Source of the DNA: a virus
Strand: one strand, 5' to 3'
IMG/VR virus record: IMGVR_UViG_3300037325_000289
Location: 1 to 21,355 of that record
Length of the DNA: 21,355 bases
Part shown: positions 3,692 through 21,338 of the stretch, in pieces
Position numbering within the stretch: the stretch's first letter is position 1
Layout: each line of letters opens with the position of its first letter
Position numbers and translations under genes: made by a program
The notes under the pieces: model-generated
What the model saw: the letters and a program-made list of their open reading frames with translations, nothing else
What the model was told of the DNA's origin: nothing
The model's database searches: none

Positions 3692-5064
3692 CGCGCGCGC
3701 TCCGCCTTCACGGCCGAGAATGAAAGCCCGCCCTCGAGGGACGCCTCGCGCCCGCTGAACTCCTGCCACCGCTTGACGATCACGTCCGCAAATCGCGGAT
3801 CGAACTCCATCAGCCGCGCCTGCCGGCCGATCTTCTCGCAGGCGATCAGGGTCGTGCCCGATCCGCCGAACAGGTCCAGCACCAGGTCGCCGCGCTGGCT
3901 TGAATTTTTGAGCATGCCCAGCACCAAGCCCACCGGCTTCATGGTTGGATGAACCGCGCTGCGCCGGGGCTTTTCGGCGCGGATCACCGACGACACCAGC
4001 TCTTCGACGTGAAGGCTCTCGCCAGAAATCCGGATGGTCGCGCCGCCATTCTCGATCAGCACCGAGCCATCGGCACCGACCGAGATCGGCATATCGGCCG
4101 CTTGCATCACTGTGGTTTTCGCGCGGCCGCCGAACCATTTATGCGCCGCGCCGCGCTTCCAGCCATAGAGAATCGGCTCATGACGCCACTGGTAATCCTT
4201 CCGCCCAAGAACCAGAGAACTCTTCACCCAGACCAGAATTCCAGACAGCTTGAAGCCCACCGAACCGAACGCCTCCAGGAAGTTGAGAGCCTCGACGTCT
4301 GCATGCGAAACGTAGATCGGCGCACCCTCGCGCATCACCGCCGATGCCGAACTAAACGCGGCAAAGAGAAACGACTTGAATTCCTCATCCGCCATGTTGT
4401 CGTTTGCGATCTTCCCCGCCTTCGCTTCATACGCGACGTTGTAAGGCGGATCCGTCCAGCAGCAATCCATCAGCGCGCCGGCGCACAGCGCCTCGACCTG
4501 ATCGAGAATAGTGCTGTCGCCGCACATCAAACGATGATCGCCAAGCAACCAGATATCGCCCAGGCGAGAGACGTGCCGATCGGACGCGGGGTCCGGAGCG
4601 GCATCATCCTCGGTCAAACCTTCGGCCTCGACATCGCCCAAGAGCAGGGTCAGCTCGTCGCCTGAGAACCCCGTCAATCCGAGATCGAAGCCCGCCTCTT
4701 TCAACGATCCGAGCTCGAGCGCCAGCAGCTCGTCGTCCCACCCCGCGTTCAGCGCAATCTTATTGTCTGCAATCACATAGGCGCGGCGCTGGCTCTCGGA
4801 GAGATGCGACAAGCGGATGCACGGCACGATCTCCATCTTCAGGCGACGCGCGGCAAGCACACGGCCGTGGCCAGCGATGATCCCGGCTTCATGATCGATC
4901 AGAACAGGGTTGGTGAAACCGAACTCCTGGATCGACGCGGCGATCTGCTGGACCTGCGCCGCGCTGTGCGTGCGGCTGTTCCGGGCATATGGCGCCAGCG
5001 CGTCGACCGCGATCATTTCGACCGCAGAGGCAGAGACGATCGGACGCCTGTCAGGGTTGCCCAT
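3688..5064 (-). CDS. ParB-like domain fused to beta-class DNA methyltransferase
   Basis: This 458-residue protein has a ParB/sulfiredoxin-like N-domain at about residues 17-110, including the GHGR box (GIIAGHGRVLAA, 61-72) and the ADNK segment. The rest is an SAM-dependent amino-methyltransferase: catalytic DPPY at 205-208 and the SAM-binding FGGSGTT loop at about 399-405. Motif IV before motif I, with a target-recognition region between them, defines the beta class (CcrM-like order). It should methylate N6-adenine or N4-cytosine, and the recognition sequence cannot be deduced. ATG at 5064 is preferred because AAGGA lies about 11 bases upstream; a TTG at 5103 would add 13 residues. No restriction endonuclease is adjacent, so self-protection of phage DNA is the likely role. 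Confidence 0.92.
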   Translation of the reverse strand: MGNPDRRPIVSASAVEMIAVDALAPYARNSRTHSAAQVQQIAASIQEFGFTNPVLIDHEAGIIAGHGRVLAARRLKMEIVPCIRLSHLSESQRRAYVIADNKIALNAGWDDELLALELGSLKEAGFDLGLTGFSGDELTLLLGDVEAEGLTEDDAAPDPASDRHVSRLGDIWLLGDHRLMCGDSTILDQVEALCAGALMDCCWTDPPYNVAYEAKAGKIANDNMADEEFKSFLFAAFSSASAVMREGAPIYVSHADVEALNFLEAFGSVGFKLSGILVWVKSSLVLGRKDYQWRHEPILYGWKRGAAHKWFGGRAKTTVMQAADMPISVGADGSVLIENGGATIRISGESLHVEELVSSVIRAEKPRRSAVHPTMKPVGLVLGMLKNSSQRGDLVLDLFGGSGTTLIACEKIGRQARLMEFDPRFADVIVKRWQEFSGREASLEGGLSFSAVKAERAR

Positions 5065-5116
5065 ACGAAACGAAATCCTTTTTTTGAGCCACGCAGAAAT
5101 CAAATTCCGCGATCAT
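5051..5116 (-). CDS. Possible 21-residue leader peptide before the ParB-methylase
   Basis: A short frame MIAEFDFCVAQKKDFVSYGQP starts at ATG 5114-5116, three bases after a G-rich stretch, and ends 14 bases inside the ParB-methylase gene. The overlap and the close G-rich upstream sequence would suit a leader coupling translation to the downstream start. It has no recognisable family and might be chance. Confidence 0.25.
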   Translation of the reverse strand: MIAEFDFCVAQKKDFVSYGQP

Positions 5117-5118
5117 AA

Positions 5119-5141
5119 TCCCCCCACCGGGGGTCCCCCCC
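5119..5141. other. C/G-tract hairpin in the lysis-methylase gap
   Basis: The run CCCCCC ACC GGGGG TCCCCCCC can fold as a short G/C stem on either strand. It lies between Rz1 and the ParB-methylase. On the transcribed (minus) strand no U-tract follows, so it is a poor intrinsic terminator. It may only attenuate transcription or be compositional. Confidence 0.3.
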
Positions 5142-5177
5142 GAAAAGGACCCGCGCCATTTCGGGCGGGGCGCGGCC

Positions 5178-5417
5178 TCAGCGGCCGCCGGTCGGGCAGG
5201 CGGCATCGAGCACCGCGAGGAAGGTCGCGGCCTCCTCGCGGCTGCGCGCAGTGTCGAGGCGCGACCAGGTGGGCAGGGCGCGGCGCACCTCGCGGCACAC
5301 GGCCGCCGCCTCAATCCCCGTCCCGGAGGCGCCCATGCTCGCGCAGCTGCTCATCGACATTGCGATCAGGGCGAAGGTTATTTTCCCAAGCCACATCGAC
5401 CCGCGCCTGCATCCCAT
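5178..5417 (-). CDS. Rz1-like outer-membrane spanin lipoprotein
   Basis: The 79-residue frame begins with a lipoprotein signal: MGCRRGSMWLGK, a hydrophobic stretch TFALIAMSM, then a lipobox SMSSC with the cysteine at residue 25. Its first 107 bases overlap the end of the Rz-like gene in a different frame, the classic nested Rz/Rz1 layout. The ATG at 5417 has GGGAG seven bases upstream; an ATG at 5396 would still leave an intact signal. The mature lipoprotein (about 55 residues) would sit in the outer membrane and pair with the Rz-like inner-membrane spanin to fuse the membranes at the end of lysis. Few prolines are present compared with lambda Rz1, so the assignment relies on signal and overlap. 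Confidence 0.72.
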   Translation of the reverse strand: MGCRRGSMWLGKITFALIAMSMSSCASMGASGTGIEAAAVCREVRRALPTWSRLDTARSREEAATFLAVLDAACPTGGR

Positions 5418-5595
5418 CGACCCGCTCCCTCTCGTGCTCGTTGATGGCGGCCCGGCTGTCGCGCCGGCCCTCGCGCGCGCCGCGCCAGTAGAGGATGCGC
5501 CCGATGATGCCGGCAGCGACCAGCGCGGCCGCGGCGCGGCCCACCCAGCTGCCGCGCACCATCGACCACAGCGCGAAGAATGCGGAGGGGATCAT
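5311..5595 (-). CDS. Rz-like inner-membrane spanin
   Basis: Starting at ATG 5593-5595, which overlaps the endolysin stop (ATGA), the product is 94 residues. It has one N-terminal transmembrane segment at about 17-37 (VGRAAAALVAAGIIGRILYW) and then a highly charged helix rich in R, E and D (AREGRRDSRAAINEHERERVD) that suits a periplasmic coiled coil. This is the architecture of an i-spanin. The overlapping Rz1-like lipoprotein gene downstream supports the role: connecting inner and outer membranes for the last step of host lysis. A longer reading upstream lies inside the endolysin gene and is discarded. Confidence 0.72.
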   Translation of the reverse strand: MIPSAFFALWSMVRGSWVGRAAAALVAAGIIGRILYWRGAREGRRDSRAAINEHERERVDGMQARVDVAWENNLRPDRNVDEQLREHGRLRDGD

Positions 5596-14072: not shown

Positions 14073-14353
14073 CCACGCAAGCGCAGCCGTTCGGCTTTGA
14101 CCGCACCGATGGCGCCGCGCATCTCGGCCTGTCGGTGTCCTCCTTCGATCGGCTCGTGGCGTCAGGGATGCTCCCTGCTGGCCGCATGCTCGGCGGTGCG
14201 AAGCGTTGGGTGCGGACCGAGCTCGAGCGCGCATTGATCGAGGCGCCTGCGGATGTGCCGCCCGGCGCCGCGCGGCGCGCCGAGGCTGCGGACAAGTCGG
14301 CGGGCGCCAACCCGTGGGATCTTGCGCTCGATGCGTCCGGTCCGCGGGCGTGA
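14069..14353 (+). CDS. Excisionase/AlpA-like HTH protein
   Basis: The 94-residue protein starts at ATG 14069, overlapping the previous stop, with GGAG six bases ahead; an ATG at 14057 would add four residues. Residues 9-50 fit a MerR/AlpA-type winged HTH: FDRTDGAAHLGLSVSSFDRL, then SGMLPAGRMLGGAKRWVRTE. The C-terminus is acidic and alanine-rich. Its stop overlaps the integrase start (GTGA), the usual place of a recombination directionality factor. A role as excisionase or regulator of integrase is inferred from the HTH and position. Confidence 0.65.
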   Translation: MTTQAQPFGFDRTDGAAHLGLSVSSFDRLVASGMLPAGRMLGGAKRWVRTELERALIEAPADVPPGAARRAEAADKSAGANPWDLALDASGPRA

Positions 14354-15444
14354 AGTACCAAAAGCAGTTTCCGGGCGCCTCGCCCTATCGCGACCGGCAC
14401 GGATCGCGGCGCTGGCGCTATCGCGCCAAGGGCTTCTCGGCCGAGATCGGGACCGACTACGGATCCGCCGAGTTCATCCTTAGATATGAGGCTGCGGTGC
14501 AGGGTGAAAAGACGCGCGCCGGGGTAGGGGCCAAGCGCACGGCGCCGGGGTCGCTCGATGCGCTGTGCGTCTCCTACCTGCGCTCTCCCGGCTATCTGCG
14601 GCTCGGGACCAGTTCCCGCTCGCGCGAGGGGAACGAGATCAAGCGCATGCGTGCGGCCTATGGCACGAACCCGGTCGCGCCGATCGAGCGTCGGCATATC
14701 ATCGTGATGATGGGCGCCAGGCACGCGACGCCGGCCAGCGCGAACCACCTCCTGCGCATGTGGCGCAAGCTCCTGAAGCACGCGCTCGACATCGGCATGC
14801 GTGCGGACAACCCCGCGACGACGGTCGAGTTCTACTCAACCTCGCCCGATGGCTTCCACACCTGGACCGAGCCGGAGATCGCGCGGTTTTTCAAGGTGCA
14901 TGCGCCGGGAGGCGTCGCCCATGCTGCGGTGACGCTGATGCTGCACACCGGCGCCGCGCGCGTCGACGCCGTACGCCTTGGTTGGACCAACATCCGCGGG
15001 GCGCGGCTGGTCTATCGGCGCGAGAAGACCCGCACGAAGACCGACACCGTGGTCGACATCCCGCTGCATCCGGCGCTAGCGGCGGTGCTCGCCACGCTGC
15101 CGCACGATCGGTTGACCTTCCTCGCGATCACCGGCGGTGCCCAGCGCAGCGCGAACGGGCTCGGGAACCAGATGCGCAAATGGTGCGACGCCGCGGGTCT
15201 GCCGGAATGCACGGCGCACGGGCTGCGCAAGGCTATCGCGCGCCGCCTGGCAGAAGCCGGAGCCTCACCGCATGAGATCATGGCGGTGACCGGGCACAGC
15301 ACGTTGAAAGAGGTAGAGCGCTACGCCCGCGCCGCCGGGCGCGCTGGGATGGCGGATCGTGGGCTGGAGCGGCTACGTGAGGCTGATGAGAAGGTGACGG
15401 CGCTGCCGCGGCGCGTGATAGGGGGGGGGATTGCGAAAGAGTGA
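14350..15444 (+). CDS. int: Tyrosine recombinase integrase
   Basis: This 364-residue enzyme integrates and excises the phage genome. The start is GTG 14350-14352, overlapping the stop of the excisionase-like gene; longer readings upstream are shadow. The catalytic set is R204 in HTGAARVDAVRLG, a lysine around 226-230, H290-x-x-R293 in AHGLRKAIARR, H316 in TGHSTLKEVERYARAA and the nucleophile Y325. The N-terminal 170 residues hold the arm/core-binding domains. The C-terminus passes through a nine-G tract (15421-15429). The last gene of the rightward arm, it is followed by a hairpin terminator, and the host attachment site lies outside or at the tRNA. Confidence 0.95.
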   Translation: MKYQKQFPGASPYRDRHGSRRWRYRAKGFSAEIGTDYGSAEFILRYEAAVQGEKTRAGVGAKRTAPGSLDALCVSYLRSPGYLRLGTSSRSREGNEIKRMRAAYGTNPVAPIERRHIIVMMGARHATPASANHLLRMWRKLLKHALDIGMRADNPATTVEFYSTSPDGFHTWTEPEIARFFKVHAPGGVAHAAVTLMLHTGAARVDAVRLGWTNIRGARLVYRREKTRTKTDTVVDIPLHPALAAVLATLPHDRLTFLAITGGAQRSANGLGNQMRKWCDAAGLPECTAHGLRKAIARRLAEAGASPHEIMAVTGHSTLKEVERYARAAGRAGMADRGLERLREADEKVTALPRRVIGGGIAKE

Positions 15445-15683: not shown

Positions 15684-16160
15684 CTAGTCGCCGATTTTTG
15701 GAAGCAATTGAAATACATCTGACCCGTCAGTGACGGACACAAATAAGCCGCTTGGGGGTGGATTTGTTCCAATAATAACTAACAAAAATCCATTCATTTC
15801 GTGAGCAGATTTTGAAAACATCTCATTTATATTTTCAATGTCGCACGAGGAGGGTTTTGGAACAGGCTCCGGATGGGTATGCCAGTCACCGACGAAGTGG
15901 AGCCCTCGGGCGTATCGGGTCGTGATTTCTCGTTGCTCGGCTACTCTGTTTGGCCGATAGGCGAACCGCGCCCTCCGGTCACAGACTCGCGGCCCCGTCG
16001 CTTCCTCCACTATGATCTTCGGCAACTGAAGTCGGGCGAACAGTTGTCCGCCTGCTTCTTTCTCCCATAAACCGTTCTGGCGATATTGATTAAAGTGATC
16101 GAGGACCGCGCGTGTGAACACAAGCCGCTGTCCCGATGCGGCGATCGGATAAGCCATCAT
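15684..16160 (-). CDS. cap3: CBASS Cap3, JAMM-type deconjugating protease
   Basis: Cap3 cleaves CD-NTase-target conjugates made by Cap2, tuning the system. The product from ATG 16158-16160 (overlapping the Cap2 stop, ATGA) is 158 residues, the usual size; an upstream frame inside cap2 is shadow. The JAMM zinc motif is complete: E35 in EKEAGGQLF, H94-T-H96, then seven residues, S104 and D107 (SSCD). The order E...HxH-x7-SxxD matches the JAB/MPN+ family exactly. It is the last gene of the operon and converges with the integrase. Catalytic residues appear intact. Confidence 0.93.
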   Translation of the reverse strand: MMAYPIAASGQRLVFTRAVLDHFNQYRQNGLWEKEAGGQLFARLQLPKIIVEEATGPRVCDRRARFAYRPNRVAEQREITTRYARGLHFVGDWHTHPEPVPKPSSCDIENINEMFSKSAHEMNGFLLVIIGTNPPPSGLFVSVTDGSDVFQLLPKIGD

Positions 16161-17977
16161 ACAGCCGCGGCCTCTCCCTTTTTGGAACTCGCAGTCGGCC
16201 AAGCCCGCTCGAAAACGAACCCGCCCTCGTGCCGGAATGACGGGTCGCACTGCCAGTTTTCTGACCACGCACCGCCCGCCTGTTCCACACGCTTGCAAGG
16301 TCCCACCCAAACCCTGTGCATCGGGCCGTTGACTGCCCCTAGGAGTGCATCCAGAGCAAGTTCGCAGATAACGGCGTTCGCCATACTCAGTTCGACGGGA
16401 CCGTACGGTTGAAAGACTGCTCCACATCCGGGCTCTTGGCGGACAGTGTCTTCGGACCCCCATGTCGTCACCGTAAAGTGAGGCAGGCCAGTACCGTCGA
16501 AGCCGGACTGGATGCTGCCAGGCGGTCCGCCGACAAGGACGGCATGTCCGGCGCAGGCATGTGCCTCAAGCCACCCATACAGAACGGGTGGGGGTCTTTC
16601 CGCTGCGCGCTGCCATGCCTCAACCCTTCTATCAGCGACCCAGCTTGCAGTCATAGAGAGAGCAAGGTCGACATTGGCAGTCGTCCCGCCATGCTCGCGT
16701 AAGAATGTGTCGGCATCCGCGACGTGGGCCGTGACTTGGATATGAGGGAAGTCTCTGCGTAGCTTCTCGGCGAGAGCCTTTGCCTTGGCTTGGTCCACCG
16801 AAGGTGCGCCGAGGACGTGCCTCCCGATATTCGGCCACTTCAGGGTATCCGGATCGACCAGGATGAGATGGCCTATGCCGGCTTGTGCCAGTTGGAGCGC
16901 AATCGCGCCACCGACGGAGCCACAGCCAAAAACGGCAACGGTCTTCTGCCTGAGCAGCGCAGCGCGCGGGTCGTGACCTCGGCCATGGACCCATTCGGCG
17001 TCAGCTCTCTCAACAATTCGTCGACTCACCTTTGACCCTCCCAGATATCGCGCCTCCAGAACTACTGGAGGAATAGATCCCGAGCGAAAGCCCTTCGTCA
17101 GCGGGTCAGTGGCCCCATAAGTTGCCTTTTTCGGTGCAGGGACGATCGCGCCCGCGAGGGTTGGGCCGTGTCGTGTATCAAACCCGAGGGCGACGATGAG
17201 AGTCTCGGGGCGCTTGCTGATCAGATTAGAGAGAACTTCAACGCCGGTTTTATCAGCTCCATCAACCATTTCACGCAGTTCACTTCCGGTGTTAGGATAC
17301 GCTGATGGCTGCGGTGGCGACTTCACCCAGACCAGCGCTGCGTCTCTCGCCCTGAAACCGCTTGGTTTATTCCCGTGGCGGTTGGCCAGCCATTCGTAAA
17401 GCTCAGCCTCTGTCTCGGCCAATAGACATATTGCCTGACCCCGCCAGAATTTTATCATCCGTGACGGTGGCTCAGCGCGAAGTAGGCTGACGATGCTTGC
17501 TCCATTTCGGTCGGCTCCATAACTCCAGTAAGAGTTAAATTCGTCCTGAAAGCGCTCAACCAGCTCGCCTTTGCTTACCTGCAAAACAAGTTGAACAGCC
17601 TCATCCAGCAGGCAAGCAGCAACCCCAGCCGGATCGTCGGGGTCAATCTCAAAGCTGTCAGATGACAAGCAGAGGACGCCGTCTTTTTCGATATGAGGCC
17701 AAGTTAAGAAAGGTGGGCGGTCAACTAACGCGATCCGTACCACCTTCCAAGGAAGCCCCTGTGGGAGTAAAATATCGAAGCGGCGCACCCTATTTTCTAA
17801 CTGGATGGATAGACGCCAACCAGCTACGGCGTTGTGGCCTTTGTAGGCTTGAAGCTCTGCAGCTGAGAGGGGGTGAAGCGGCGCAGCGCCGAGACACTCA
17901 AGCCATGTGGTGACTGCGGCTCGGGCCGCGTCAAACACTGGCCCAAGCTCAAGGGATGTTTTTGTGTCGTTAGGCAT
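16157..17977 (-). CDS. cap2: CBASS Cap2, E2-E1 fusion that conjugates the CD-NTase
   Basis: Cap2 activates and transfers the CD-NTase C-terminus to a target protein, priming CBASS signalling. From ATG 17975-17977 (overlapping the CD-NTase stop, with GGTGG eight bases upstream) the product is 606 residues. The E2-like N-domain has its catalytic cysteine C103 in EKDGVLCLSS (97-106). The E1/ThiF-like domain begins about residue 344, with the nucleotide loop GCGSVGG (351-357) and VDPDTLKWPNIGRH behind it. The catalytic E1 cysteine is C518 in QEPGCGAVFQP. The stop overlaps the cap3 start. Both active sites are present, so this looks functional. Confidence 0.93.
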   Translation of the reverse strand: MPNDTKTSLELGPVFDAARAAVTTWLECLGAAPLHPLSAAELQAYKGHNAVAGWRLSIQLENRVRRFDILLPQGLPWKVVRIALVDRPPFLTWPHIEKDGVLCLSSDSFEIDPDDPAGVAACLLDEAVQLVLQVSKGELVERFQDEFNSYWSYGADRNGASIVSLLRAEPPSRMIKFWRGQAICLLAETEAELYEWLANRHGNKPSGFRARDAALVWVKSPPQPSAYPNTGSELREMVDGADKTGVEVLSNLISKRPETLIVALGFDTRHGPTLAGAIVPAPKKATYGATDPLTKGFRSGSIPPVVLEARYLGGSKVSRRIVERADAEWVHGRGHDPRAALLRQKTVAVFGCGSVGGAIALQLAQAGIGHLILVDPDTLKWPNIGRHVLGAPSVDQAKAKALAEKLRRDFPHIQVTAHVADADTFLREHGGTTANVDLALSMTASWVADRRVEAWQRAAERPPPVLYGWLEAHACAGHAVLVGGPPGSIQSGFDGTGLPHFTVTTWGSEDTVRQEPGCGAVFQPYGPVELSMANAVICELALDALLGAVNGPMHRVWVGPCKRVEQAGGAWSENWQCDPSFRHEGGFVFERAWPTASSKKGEAAAV

Positions 17978-19043
17978 AGCGGCCGCCACCCTCTTTTCGA
18001 ACGGCGCTCTTTGCGGGTGCCGCGGCGCTGGAAATCAAACCAGCGGTCAAAACGGCAGGACTGGCAATTGCGGACTTCTGCTCCGAGTCAGCGCTTGCGT
18101 TTCCCCGCTCGCTGAAGAAATTCGTGTTGAAAACCTTATCCCAGCACTTAAGCGCCTTCTCTCGCGTGCAATCGGACTCGAGCGTCGGGGCAAGCTGATC
18201 GATTGCATCCGTCAGTTTATTGCAGAGAAATCGTGCTTTCGCATCATCGCTCCCGTTCGTGATTGTCTCGTTGGGCGTTACTGGGTGCTTGATGATCAAG
18301 CTGCCAGCTAGGCGTTTTCGGATGGCATTCATGGTGTCGTAGAGAGCTTGATCTTCCCTATTGATGCCGGCGCAAAACACTTCAACGGCGAGCTTCGTGA
18401 TTCCGAAACCACTCAGAGTCTGCCCGCTCCAACTCGTGCGGCTCCGGGAAAATTTCTTGATGTGCCGTATAACTCGGCGCAGTTGCCGTCCGTTTGTAAT
18501 GTCGGAGCTCTGTTTCTTGTTTTGTGCTTCAAACCAGTCCGTGACATCGCGCGCGTCGGATTTTTTCCATTCACTGCTGGCAAGTTCGTAATGATGGGTT
18601 TCGTTATCGAAAATGTCCTTCATCGTCACCCGGCGATATACGGGCATGTCAACGTGGTATCCAGCGGCATAGTAAATGCGAACACAATTCTTAATTATCT
18701 CAGGAGCTGTATTGAATCTTCCATCATCCACGGCATCTCGCACCATTTTTCGTGCTTGAAGCGCTGTCATTTCGGCCCCACGGTCGCCAATGAGTGATGT
18801 CTTTTCGAAGTAGATGCCATCATCGATATCATAGTCATTCTCAGGGTGCTGAACCATGGTTTTCATGGCATAGCTCCCTTGGCTCTTGCATTCAATTGGT
18901 GCTGGATTTCCGTTTTTTATGAGTCCATTATTCATGCGTACACGGTTGGCATCACGATGCGCGCGCATCGTGTTTCGATATGGCTGAGGTAGCGTCACTT
19001 TTTCATTGTGGTGAGCAATAATATCGTTGGCACAGTCATGCAT
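17970..19043 (-). CDS. dncV: CBASS CD-NTase, DncV-like cyclic dinucleotide synthase
   Basis: This 357-residue nucleotidyltransferase should make the cyclic dinucleotide that activates CapV (in the DncV group, 3',3'-cGAMP; product not readable here). The nucleotide-binding G56-S57 (SQGSYAMKT) and catalytic D72 and D74 in YDIDDG are intact. A third aspartate fits D132 in GYHVDMPVY. The C-terminal half is helical. The last residues, EGGGRYA, form the flexible tail that Cap2 would attach to targets. I choose ATG 19043 because AAAGG lies nine bases upstream and the gene then overlaps the CapV stop by eight bases; ATG 19052 adds three residues. The gene symbol follows the DncV-like (clade A-type) signature and is a family-level assignment. 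Confidence 0.88.
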   Translation of the reverse strand: MHDCANDIIAHHNEKVTLPQPYRNTMRAHRDANRVRMNNGLIKNGNPAPIECKSQGSYAMKTMVQHPENDYDIDDGIYFEKTSLIGDRGAEMTALQARKMVRDAVDDGRFNTAPEIIKNCVRIYYAAGYHVDMPVYRRVTMKDIFDNETHHYELASSEWKKSDARDVTDWFEAQNKKQSSDITNGRQLRRVIRHIKKFSRSRTSWSGQTLSGFGITKLAVEVFCAGINREDQALYDTMNAIRKRLAGSLIIKHPVTPNETITNGSDDAKARFLCNKLTDAIDQLAPTLESDCTREKALKCWDKVFNTNFFSERGNASADSEQKSAIASPAVLTAGLISSAAAPAKSAVRKEGGGRYA

Positions 19044-20226
19044 GGTCGGCATCCTTTCCAGCAGGCTCTGACGGAGACTGTCCCTGGGCAAGCGGGGCCT
19101 GACGCTTGAAAAGGGGAATGGTGAGCGGTGGCATCGCGTTAAATAGATCGCAGATCATCGCCGCCTCTGGGTCAGTATCTTGATAATTGCATTTGCTGTT
19201 CGTCATATCGGCATCCGTCTGCGCCTGTCTGATTAGCGCCTCGACAGCTTCCGTGCGTGTGTCATCTAGCCCTAAATACGGGATCAAGGCAGCAGGCACA
19301 TTTTCTGATGGAAATCGAAGCACCTTACAACTTCGTCCGGTGCTTATTTTAATCTGACTGGCCAACTTTTTTGCCATGTGATCATAGGCGAACTGCTGGG
19401 CGTCGACCGCTAGCGACGCGGCCTCACCGCCGAACTTCCATCCGGCGAGCCCGCGATGCACATCTGAGCGGTTTATCTGTTCCCCTGCCGGAAGTGGGCA
19501 GGTGCCGAGACTGAATACCTCGATAGGCTGTTCAGGCGCTGCGACATCCAGTGCCTCGATAAGGCCGATCATCACAGGATTGTTGGCCCATAAACCACCA
19601 TCGACAAATACGTTATGCGTCGGAGCTCCACCCGGATGATCTATGCTAGCCATGGAGCGAAATACCGGTGCCGCAGAAGTCGCTAAGCAAACTTCAACCA
19701 AGCGATAATTGTCATCGCGATGGTTTGTCGTCTCAAGGTGTGGCGTCTTAAATACCCAAGCGCGATGCTGGCTCATTTCTACCGCCGTGATGGCAAGCGC
19801 TATCCCTCGCTGCTTGTAAACATCGGCAATGGTTGTTTCACCGAGCACGTCCACAAGAGCTTTCCGGAGCGCTTCGTCCCCATGTGCCAACGCCTTTGGC
19901 CTCTTTATGAGGTCCGCAATGAGCCTCGGTATCATCCTTGTCAGTGGTCCATCAGGCAGTCGGCGGCTAAAAATCTTGGGGCCGTGTGTGCGGTAGAGTT
20001 CAGCTATGCTTTTGAGCGGAACGCCTTTCGCGAGCCCGCAGGCGATGATGCCCCCCGTGCTCGTCCCAACGATCAAGTCAAAGCCTGCCCCAATGTCCAA
20101 CGCCTCTTCTCCGCGACGCTGCGCGAAGGCGCTCGCCACCTGATTAAGGTAAGTCGCGGTGTACGTGCCGCGCATGCCGCCTCCGTCGAGACTGAGTACG
20201 CGGTAGGGGAGAAGCTCTGAAACCAT
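19036..20226 (-). CDS. capV: CBASS effector CapV, patatin-like phospholipase
   Basis: CapV degrades inner-membrane phospholipids once it binds the cyclic dinucleotide, killing the infected cell before phage release. The 396-residue protein has all patatin motifs: the oxyanion loop DGGGMRG (14-20), the nucleophile S56 in GTSTG (54-58), and catalytic D209 in VDGG (208-211) followed by LWANNP. An ATSAAP segment at 182-187 is also typical. The extra C-terminal region (about 250-396) should bind the messenger and support oligomerisation. It is the first gene of the operon; its ATG has AAGGA about 13 bases upstream, a loose spacing. The promoter is in the upstream AT-rich gap. Confidence 0.93.
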   Translation of the reverse strand: MVSELLPYRVLSLDGGGMRGTYTATYLNQVASAFAQRRGEEALDIGAGFDLIVGTSTGGIIACGLAKGVPLKSIAELYRTHGPKIFSRRLPDGPLTRMIPRLIADLIKRPKALAHGDEALRKALVDVLGETTIADVYKQRGIALAITAVEMSQHRAWVFKTPHLETTNHRDDNYRLVEVCLATSAAPVFRSMASIDHPGGAPTHNVFVDGGLWANNPVMIGLIEALDVAAPEQPIEVFSLGTCPLPAGEQINRSDVHRGLAGWKFGGEAASLAVDAQQFAYDHMAKKLASQIKISTGRSCKVLRFPSENVPAALIPYLGLDDTRTEAVEALIRQAQTDADMTNSKCNYQDTDPEAAMICDLFNAMPPLTIPLFKRQAPLAQGQSPSEPAGKDADHA

Positions 20227-20260
20227 TTGGCGTACCGAATCCTTAGTGTCATTAATAATT

Positions 20261-20289
20261 CATATGGATATAGCTTCGCGATACGTCAA
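20261..20289 (-). promoter_or_regulatory. Predicted CBASS operon promoter
   Basis: On the minus strand TTGACG (20289-20284) is followed after 17 bases by CATATG (20266-20261); TATGAA nearby, at 19-base spacing, is an alternative -10. It lies 35 bases upstream of the capV start, in AT-rich DNA just next to the WYL-gene remnant, exactly where a divergent CapW repressor would act. Confidence 0.45.
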
Positions 20290-20310
20290 GATGTTGAATT
20301 GAGTGCGAGC

Positions 20311-20795
20311 ATGTCAAGGGCCGGCGGGCACTCATGGACGCAAAGTCAAAGATTCGATTTCATTGATTCGAGTTTTTTAGTGGATGGCTGATTTGAAGGA
20401 GGCCTAGGGTCAATTGCAAAATTGCTACTCCGTAGATGCCAGCGGACATTCGAGGATACCCAAAATGGAGAATATACCCTCGGTGAAGTACTTGTGTGTA
20501 CTCGGTGAGGGGGAGGATGGAATCCTTGCGTATCTCCGTGGCTCGCTTGCGAGAGGCGTCAGAAACACTAAGCATCTACGTTTCGTGCGGCTTCTGACGT
20601 CTCTTGCAGACGAGCGACCACCGCGATGTGATCGAGGTGCAATATTAATTGATGGTCAAGATTCTTGGGCAGAAAATCGCGCTCCACGCATTCGCTTTTG
20701 ATGGTTGCCGCTGGCATGTATACTCATGGGCAATCGACTGCGAAGGCTTCAGGGGCTTCGTTGTTCCAAGGTTTGACGAGATTGGCATTTCCTAA
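20311..20795 (+). pseudogene. Decayed WYL-domain regulator, CapW/BrxR-like
   Basis: Broken coding sequence reads away from the CBASS operon. In the frame of ATG 20311, SQRFDFIDSSFLVDG (residues 12-26) matches the start of CapW/BrxR winged HTHs (typically 'R..FI+...W+G+'), then a TGA (20389) follows. After a frameshift, RDVIEVQY at 20622-20645 fits the first WYL strand, followed by TAA at 20646-20648. The same frame continues with LHAFAFDGCRWHVYSWA and GFRGFVVPRF, which correspond to the 'HA..FDG.RWHVRA' and 'F+DFV..R' blocks of WYL. TAA at 20793 ends it. HPDLNDEKAG at about 20863-20892 in another frame may be a remnant of the WCX domain. At least two internal stops and one frameshift make a functional protein unlikely. 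Confidence 0.72.
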
Positions 20796-21182
20796 CCGGC
20801 GAACTTTGATTCAGACGACGATAAGGTTTGAAATACAAAGATCGCAACCCTGCTCAGCCCGACATCCCGATCTGAATGACGAAAAGGCAGGCACGAATGG
20901 TTACTGCCGATTAATGCCGCAGGCGTAACTCAGCAGCCATCCGGATCTGTTCTTCGCCCATCTCAGGGTCTCGCTGAGAGGTGACCGCTCCCAGGATCTC
21001 AGCCTAAAGCAGCCCGCAGTACGATGTTTCGCATGCGCCGTGGACGGCTCATGTCTGCCGGTTCTGCACCCTGCTTCGCTCGTACCGATGCAAGAGGCGG
21101 CAGGCCTGACAAATGCGCTGGATCATCGAAGAGCTGGATGAGTAGCAAGCCATCGCCAGCCCATGCCCCCTCGCCTCAAACC
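20796..21182. other. Non-coding or degraded stretch before the tRNA gene
   Basis: No intact gene is supported here. The first part may still carry WCX-domain remnants of the WYL pseudogene. Open frames up to about 70 codons exist on both strands, but none has a ribosome site, a family motif or a plausible neighbour. A frame on the minus strand at 20911-21003 reads like a coding 3' end but begins right after a stop. Confidence 0.6.
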
Positions 21183-21211
21183 TTGACGAACCTTTGCCAA
21201 AGGTTCGTCAA
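21183..21211. repeat. 29-bp perfect palindrome near tRNA-Tyr
   Basis: TTGACGAACCTTTG, a central C, and CAAAGGTTCGTCAA form a perfect 14-bp inverted repeat. It lies about 44 bases downstream of the tRNA CCA end in the tRNA reading direction. It may be an integrase or regulator site, or a terminator stem; no T-run follows it. Confidence 0.8.
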
Positions 21212-21229
21212 CGCGCCCCGTAGGGCGCG
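21212..21229 (-). terminator. Possible terminator hairpin downstream of tRNA-Tyr
   Basis: CGCGCCC / GGGCGCG (7 bp) with loop CGTA is directly next to the 29-bp palindrome. In the tRNA direction it is followed by TTGACG rather than a clear T-run, so termination is only likely as a structured stop. Confidence 0.4.
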
Positions 21230-21254
21230 CTAGGCAAAGCATCTTTTTTGGGGG

Positions 21255-21338
21255 TGGTGGGCGGGGTGGGAATCGAACCCACTATGCGTCACCGCGGCGG
21301 AGTTACAGTCCGCTGCTCTACCTTAGAGCATCCCGCCC
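21255..21338 (-). tRNA. tRNA-Tyr (anticodon GTA), CCA encoded
   Basis: The minus strand folds as a complete tRNA. The acceptor stem is GGGCGGG/CCCGCCC (7 bp), the D-arm GCTC-TAAGGTA-GAGC, and the anticodon arm GCGGA-CTGTAAC-TCCGC with GTA. The 14-base variable arm has a GCG/CGC stem, and the T-arm is GTGGG-TTCGATT-CCCAC. It ends with A and an encoded CCA. The long variable arm agrees with bacterial tRNA-Tyr. Its 3' end points at the CBASS island, the usual orientation for an integration target. Confidence 0.95.

Follow-up and report, generated by a model that had tools for sequence, protein, structure and literature searches.

The locus described here raises the question of what became of the regulatory gene beside an intact CBASS operon, and of how that operon can be carried without it. 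The window (the whole stretch of DNA analysed) is the 21,355-base record of an uncultivated virus contig from IMG/VR, with phage genes (PHROG) to the left and the CBASS operon at its right end. The type II set is complete (CD-NTase, effector, Cap2 and Cap3) and all four reading frames are open:

19036 to 20226, minus strand: capV, CBASS patatin-like phospholipase, intact, with DGGGMRG, GTSTG and DGG motifs (PADLOC PDLC00758, 1.4e-102; NCBIfam CBASS_lipase over its cut-off)
17970 to 19091, minus strand: CD-NTase (DncV-like), intact (PADLOC cyclase, 7.8e-148; Pfam DncV-like_NTFase)
16157 to 17989, minus strand: cap2, E1-E2 fusion, intact (PADLOC E1-E2, 2.8e-213)
within 15684 to 16463, minus strand: cap3, JAB protease (PADLOC JAB, 2e-66, residues 102-254)
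20227 to 20310, no strand: divergent intergenic region of 84 bp, the expected place of the capV promoter and of a CapW operator

The cap3 open reading frame probably starts further in, the JAB match beginning only at residue 102. The patatin effector had been called intact in the initial annotation and it is: capV is full length, carries its motifs and has a strong family match.

On the plus strand, starting at 20311 and thus divergent from capV (start at 20226, minus strand) with 84 bp between them, the stretch 20311-20911 is a decayed capW, the gene of a wHTH-WYL-WCX repressor. A plus-strand CapW-type wHTH/WYL gene divergent from capV had been proposed at this place; PDB comparison, tblastn and profile alignment all bear this out, and the proposed coordinates were good. 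The evidence is as follows: (i), the open piece 20649-20792, which reads LMVKILGQKIALHAFAFDGCRWHVYSWAIDCEGFRGFVVPRFDEIGIS in frame +3 of the six-frame translation, was compared as 48 residues with the PDB (177,635 sequences) and matched CapW best (9c5g, E 1.2e-9), then Stenotrophomonas maltophilia CapW (3.8e-4), a WYL-domain entry and BrxR (7t8k, E 0.08), with nothing else close, and an 88-residue reading across stops matched the same CapW (9c5g) at E 5.8e-15. (ii), the intact CapW of locus L004, used as a tblastn query against the whole window, gave a single match, at the relic (E 5.7e-4, next 0.85). (iii), an alphaproteobacterial CapW profile built from 28 intact CapW-like proteins and aligned to 20227-21254, allowing frame changes, gaps and stops, scored 92.2 bits on the plus strand and 35.8 on the minus strand, against maxima of 49.1 in 200 dinucleotide shuffles and 43.6 in 76 pieces from elsewhere in the window; a profile restricted to the five closest CapW proteins gave 116.9 bits along a simpler path (maximum of 20 simple shuffles, 43.2). 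The initial annotation had suggested a search of the frames with profile models. Pfam, NCBIfam and PADLOC models found no match to the relic pieces in raw frames or in the stitched reading, as expected for pieces so short and broken, but a six-frame HMM search of the window returned 20649-20792 as its sole significant piece (E 1.5e-10, runner-up 1.7).

Remnants of all three domains lie in the order wHTH, WYL, WCX, with the wHTH, the WYL and the start of the WCX each significant:

20311 to 20391, plus strand: start region; ATG 20311 opens MSRAGGHSWTQSQRFDFIDSSFLVDG, then TGA; first wHTH helix
20381 to 20459, plus strand: remaining wHTH, in frames +2 then +3, with TAG 20433-20435 (frameshift-tolerant alignment)
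20460 to 20597, plus strand: wHTH-WYL linker, unrecognisable and partly deleted
20598 to 20861, plus strand: WYL remnant, 88 codons in frame +3, indel-free against Rhizobiaceae CapW (84 bits)
20862 to 20911, plus strand: start of the WCX, HPDLNDE..QARMVTAD, after two more frame changes
20912 to 21182, plus strand: possible remaining WCX, very weak

From ATG 20311 the relic N-terminus, MSRAGGHSWTQSQRFDFID, matches that of the Rhizobium phaseoli CapW at L129, MTDEKRPWTQNQRFEFIEWKLFWEG; the part 20332-20367 aligns to CapW WTQNQRFEFIE with 23 bits. Further on, W MADLKEA ... CKIATP*MPADIRGY of the relic aligns with W RSDLEET FEISTPQASVDLRRY of CapW. When the parts were tested separately, none of 500 shuffles reached the score of the wHTH (20300-20470), the first WYL strand, the WYL core or 20796-20911; the linker alone (20470-20600) was reached by 122 of 500, and 20912-21254 was marginal (16 of 500). 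The extent 20311-20911 is therefore firm. The WYL motif of CapW has a conserved Trp and carries His instead of Tyr (RWH), followed at a distance by Arg, Phe and Arg (PMC9122588); this signature, which sets CapW apart, is kept in the relic, where CRWHVYSW...FRGFVVPR retains R, W, H, R, F and R.

The single open frame of CapW (about 290-300 codons) is absent from the window. Decay with two stops and frame changes had been described at first; the decay and the frame changes stand, while the count was too low, since four stops lie on the aligned path (TAG 20433, TAA 20646, TAA 20793 and TGA 20829), the last three inside the 88-codon WYL stretch (20646-20648, 20793-20795 and 20829-20831), together with several frame changes and a net deletion of about 150 bp. 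As the only product from the start ATG is 26 residues long, no working CapW can come from the window copy. An intact capW might look broken in this way through errors of sequencing or assembly in a metagenomic contig, and the relic region had no identical copy for comparison in a DNA-level search of plasmids and phages, in which the tRNA alone matched. Against such errors, however, all the damage (four or more stops, several frame changes and the loss of the linker) lies within about 600 bp, whereas the 6 kb of capV, the CD-NTase gene, cap2, cap3 and the integrase gene are open throughout; the 88-codon stretch, although free of indels, still has three stops and just 45% identity to its relatives. 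With the lesions confined to the capW relic, we reject sequencing error, which we regard as extremely improbable. We give no more credit to the idea that the fragment 20652-20792 survives as a functional small protein: it has an ATG (20652), and no part of the relic is better preserved than the WYL core, but the product would amount to one incomplete beta-barrel domain, devoid of DNA-binding and dimerisation parts, and the very long branch of the relic in its tree (4.77) is consistent with loss of constraint.

The closest known counterparts are the CapW proteins of Rhizobiaceae type III-like CBASS (L129, L130 and L132; PDB 9c5g), in which capW lies divergently beside an annotated oligonucleotide cyclase and AAA ATPase. 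The relic shares with them the N-terminus WTQNQRFEFIE and the RWH signature, lacks in its WYL core the insertion of the L004 and L005 proteins, and is likewise divergent from the first CBASS gene; unlike them, it is broken and stands beside a type II CapV operon. Identity to the Rhizobiaceae proteins of L128-L132, all of which keep RWH as the relic does, is 40-45% over 85 residues, against 24% to the L004 CapW over the WYL stretch. At L128 (4551-5468) and L131 the CapW relative adjoins an N-6 DNA methylase gene (the genes of L129-L132 lie at 4551-5444), and a single subfamily of CapW seems to work with several defence systems. BREX BrxR (7t8k) has the same fold and domain order as the relic and gives a weak match over 48 residues, but the CapW matches are far stronger and the window contains no BREX genes, the neighbours being CBASS and phage genes. 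A tree groups the relic with L128-L132 (99/99); given the very long branch, this grouping is suggestive only. Since the relic is closer to the CapW of Rhizobiaceae type III CBASS than to that of the nearest CBASS relatives, these comparisons suggest that an exchange of regulator may have preceded the decay. A fuller scenario, which we offer tentatively and hold to be somewhat doubtful, is that a prophage type II CBASS once acquired a CapW from the type III lineage, later lost this regulator, and persists with all four core genes open. If true, this would be a natural CapW-null experiment, with a repressor both exchangeable and dispensable in such a setting.

An intact divergent capW stands beside a related capV in four loci (L004, L005, L051 and L058). 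As in these CapV type II systems, the relic lies divergently and immediately upstream of capV; their CapW genes are intact, unlike the relic, and those of L004, L005 and L058 fall into a different CapW group. Among the CapV relatives compared (47-69% identity), the window falls in a supported clade (99/97) with the CapW-bearing L004 and L005, and also with L001, L006 and L010. Other loci carry at the same divergent position upstream of capV the genes of CapH/CapP-like regulators, an HTH protein and an ImmA/IrrE-type peptidase (L001, L120-L124 and L126, several of them Rhizobiaceae plasmid loci). No such pair lies upstream of the window capV: open reading frames for an Xre-type HTH protein and an ImmA/IrrE-type peptidase were absent from 20227-21254, and Pfam was blank in the plus frames. 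At L002 (3630-5445) and L009 (3992-5882) the divergent genes upstream of capV include an ImmA/IrrE-type peptidase gene, with at L002 also a protein weakly matching sigma-70 region 2; they are possibly another CBASS regulator set. In 17 CapV loci without intact CapW, a frameshift-tolerant scan found no relic above shuffles. Many close CapV relatives thus have CapH and CapP-like genes or no visible regulator, and the differences between related loci indicate that the regulator at the position upstream of capV turns over and that absence of CapW is ordinary. Core genes may also be broken in CBASS operons: Bradyrhizobium sp. BRP22 has an apparently frameshifted capV (L010, 5983-6774), and the cyclase of Rhizobium sp. 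CC1099 is annotated as two pieces (L122, 4111-5156).

The operon and the relic are probably prophage cargo, judging by their place relative to the following features:

14206 to 15444, plus strand: tyrosine-type phage integrase (Pfam Phage_integrase, 2.2e-13; PHROG integrase)
21244 to 21267, no strand: att core TTTTTTGGGGGTGGTGGGCGGGGT, at the 3' end of the tRNA-Tyr gene; 23 of 24 positions identical to a sequence just 3' of the integrase gene in the phage contig L090
21255 to 21338, minus strand: tRNA-Tyr (GTA), by ARAGORN

In L090, whose integrase is 80% identical, the att core follows within about 100 bp of the integrase gene (850-1000) with no cargo; in the window 5.8 kb separate the two and G+C falls from 0.69 in the integrase gene to 0.41-0.60 beyond, which is why we place CBASS and relic between integrase and attachment site as cargo. 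A wider alignment of the att region between window and L090 scored 83 (shuffle maximum 35). The DNA immediately inward of the att core, next to the tRNA-Tyr gene (21183-21235), has two strong hairpins (TTGACGAACCTTTG/CAAAGGTTCGTCAA and GCGCCCCGTAGGGCGC). Relatives of the window CapV, Cap2 and CD-NTase were absent from the viral contigs searched, which hence supplied no phage relative with an intact capW.

This position invites the idea that CBASS became coupled to lysogeny, with the phage repressor (10409-11149) or some other regulator of the phage taking over its control. A phage-type transcriptional repressor (PHROG) is indeed encoded on the same element and the cargo is flanked by integrase and att, but the related loci offer no precedent and we consider such a takeover very unlikely. 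Somewhat less remote, while still unlikely, is that the operon remains under a WYL protein that is encoded elsewhere, in the host or on another element, and acts in trans, the local loss then being of little effect: alphaproteobacterial replicons often carry CapW-like genes (in one order, 36 of 297 genomes; 689 plasmids). L004 (5886-5936) and L005 (5882-5965) have common inverted arms, GAATAGAAACT / AGTTTCTATTC, which flank the divergent capW-capV promoter region and are a likely CapW operator. In the window, however, the best match to this type of half-site is at chance level, and the 84-bp gap (20227-20310) holds no palindrome or promoter match above chance.

Our preferred explanation is that of a capW pseudogene beside an operon that now runs without CapW control and whose killing is gated after translation; taken as a whole, we give it a probability of about 0.9. 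CapW represses its CBASS promoter (PMC9122588), and its release, like that of BrxR, by single-stranded DNA has been reported (PMC13373217); a divergent capW would normally hold the adjacent operon down until this ligand binds CapW. In the window, the strength of its own promoter, or some regulator of host or phage origin, would now determine how far the operon is expressed. Basal expression is what we favour; it would be tolerable because the need to activate the cyclase, together with the Cap2/Cap3 pair, presumably also gates killing, as in the many CBASS systems without capW. With a complete Escherichia coli CBASS, CapW mutants were unobtainable and the authors inferred toxicity of the unrepressed system (PMC9122588). 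The initial annotation had judged an intact effector without its repressor unusual and potentially costly; this inference is weak, and the rarity is not supported, since in a survey of 6233 CBASS systems CapW was present in no more than 160 (PMC9122588) and many close relatives lack it. As probable cargo between prophage integrase and attachment site, the operon would most likely protect the lysogen against other phages.

The decay is thus real, yet because CBASS clusters without CapW are common, the locus offers an elegant natural case without representing a new type of system. It documents turnover at one position (CapW, CapH/CapP-like or none) among closely related CBASS operons, and the pairing of a dead capW with an intact killer operon makes it a natural place to ask what renders loss of a repressor tolerable, be it a weakened promoter, gating after translation or a replacement regulator.
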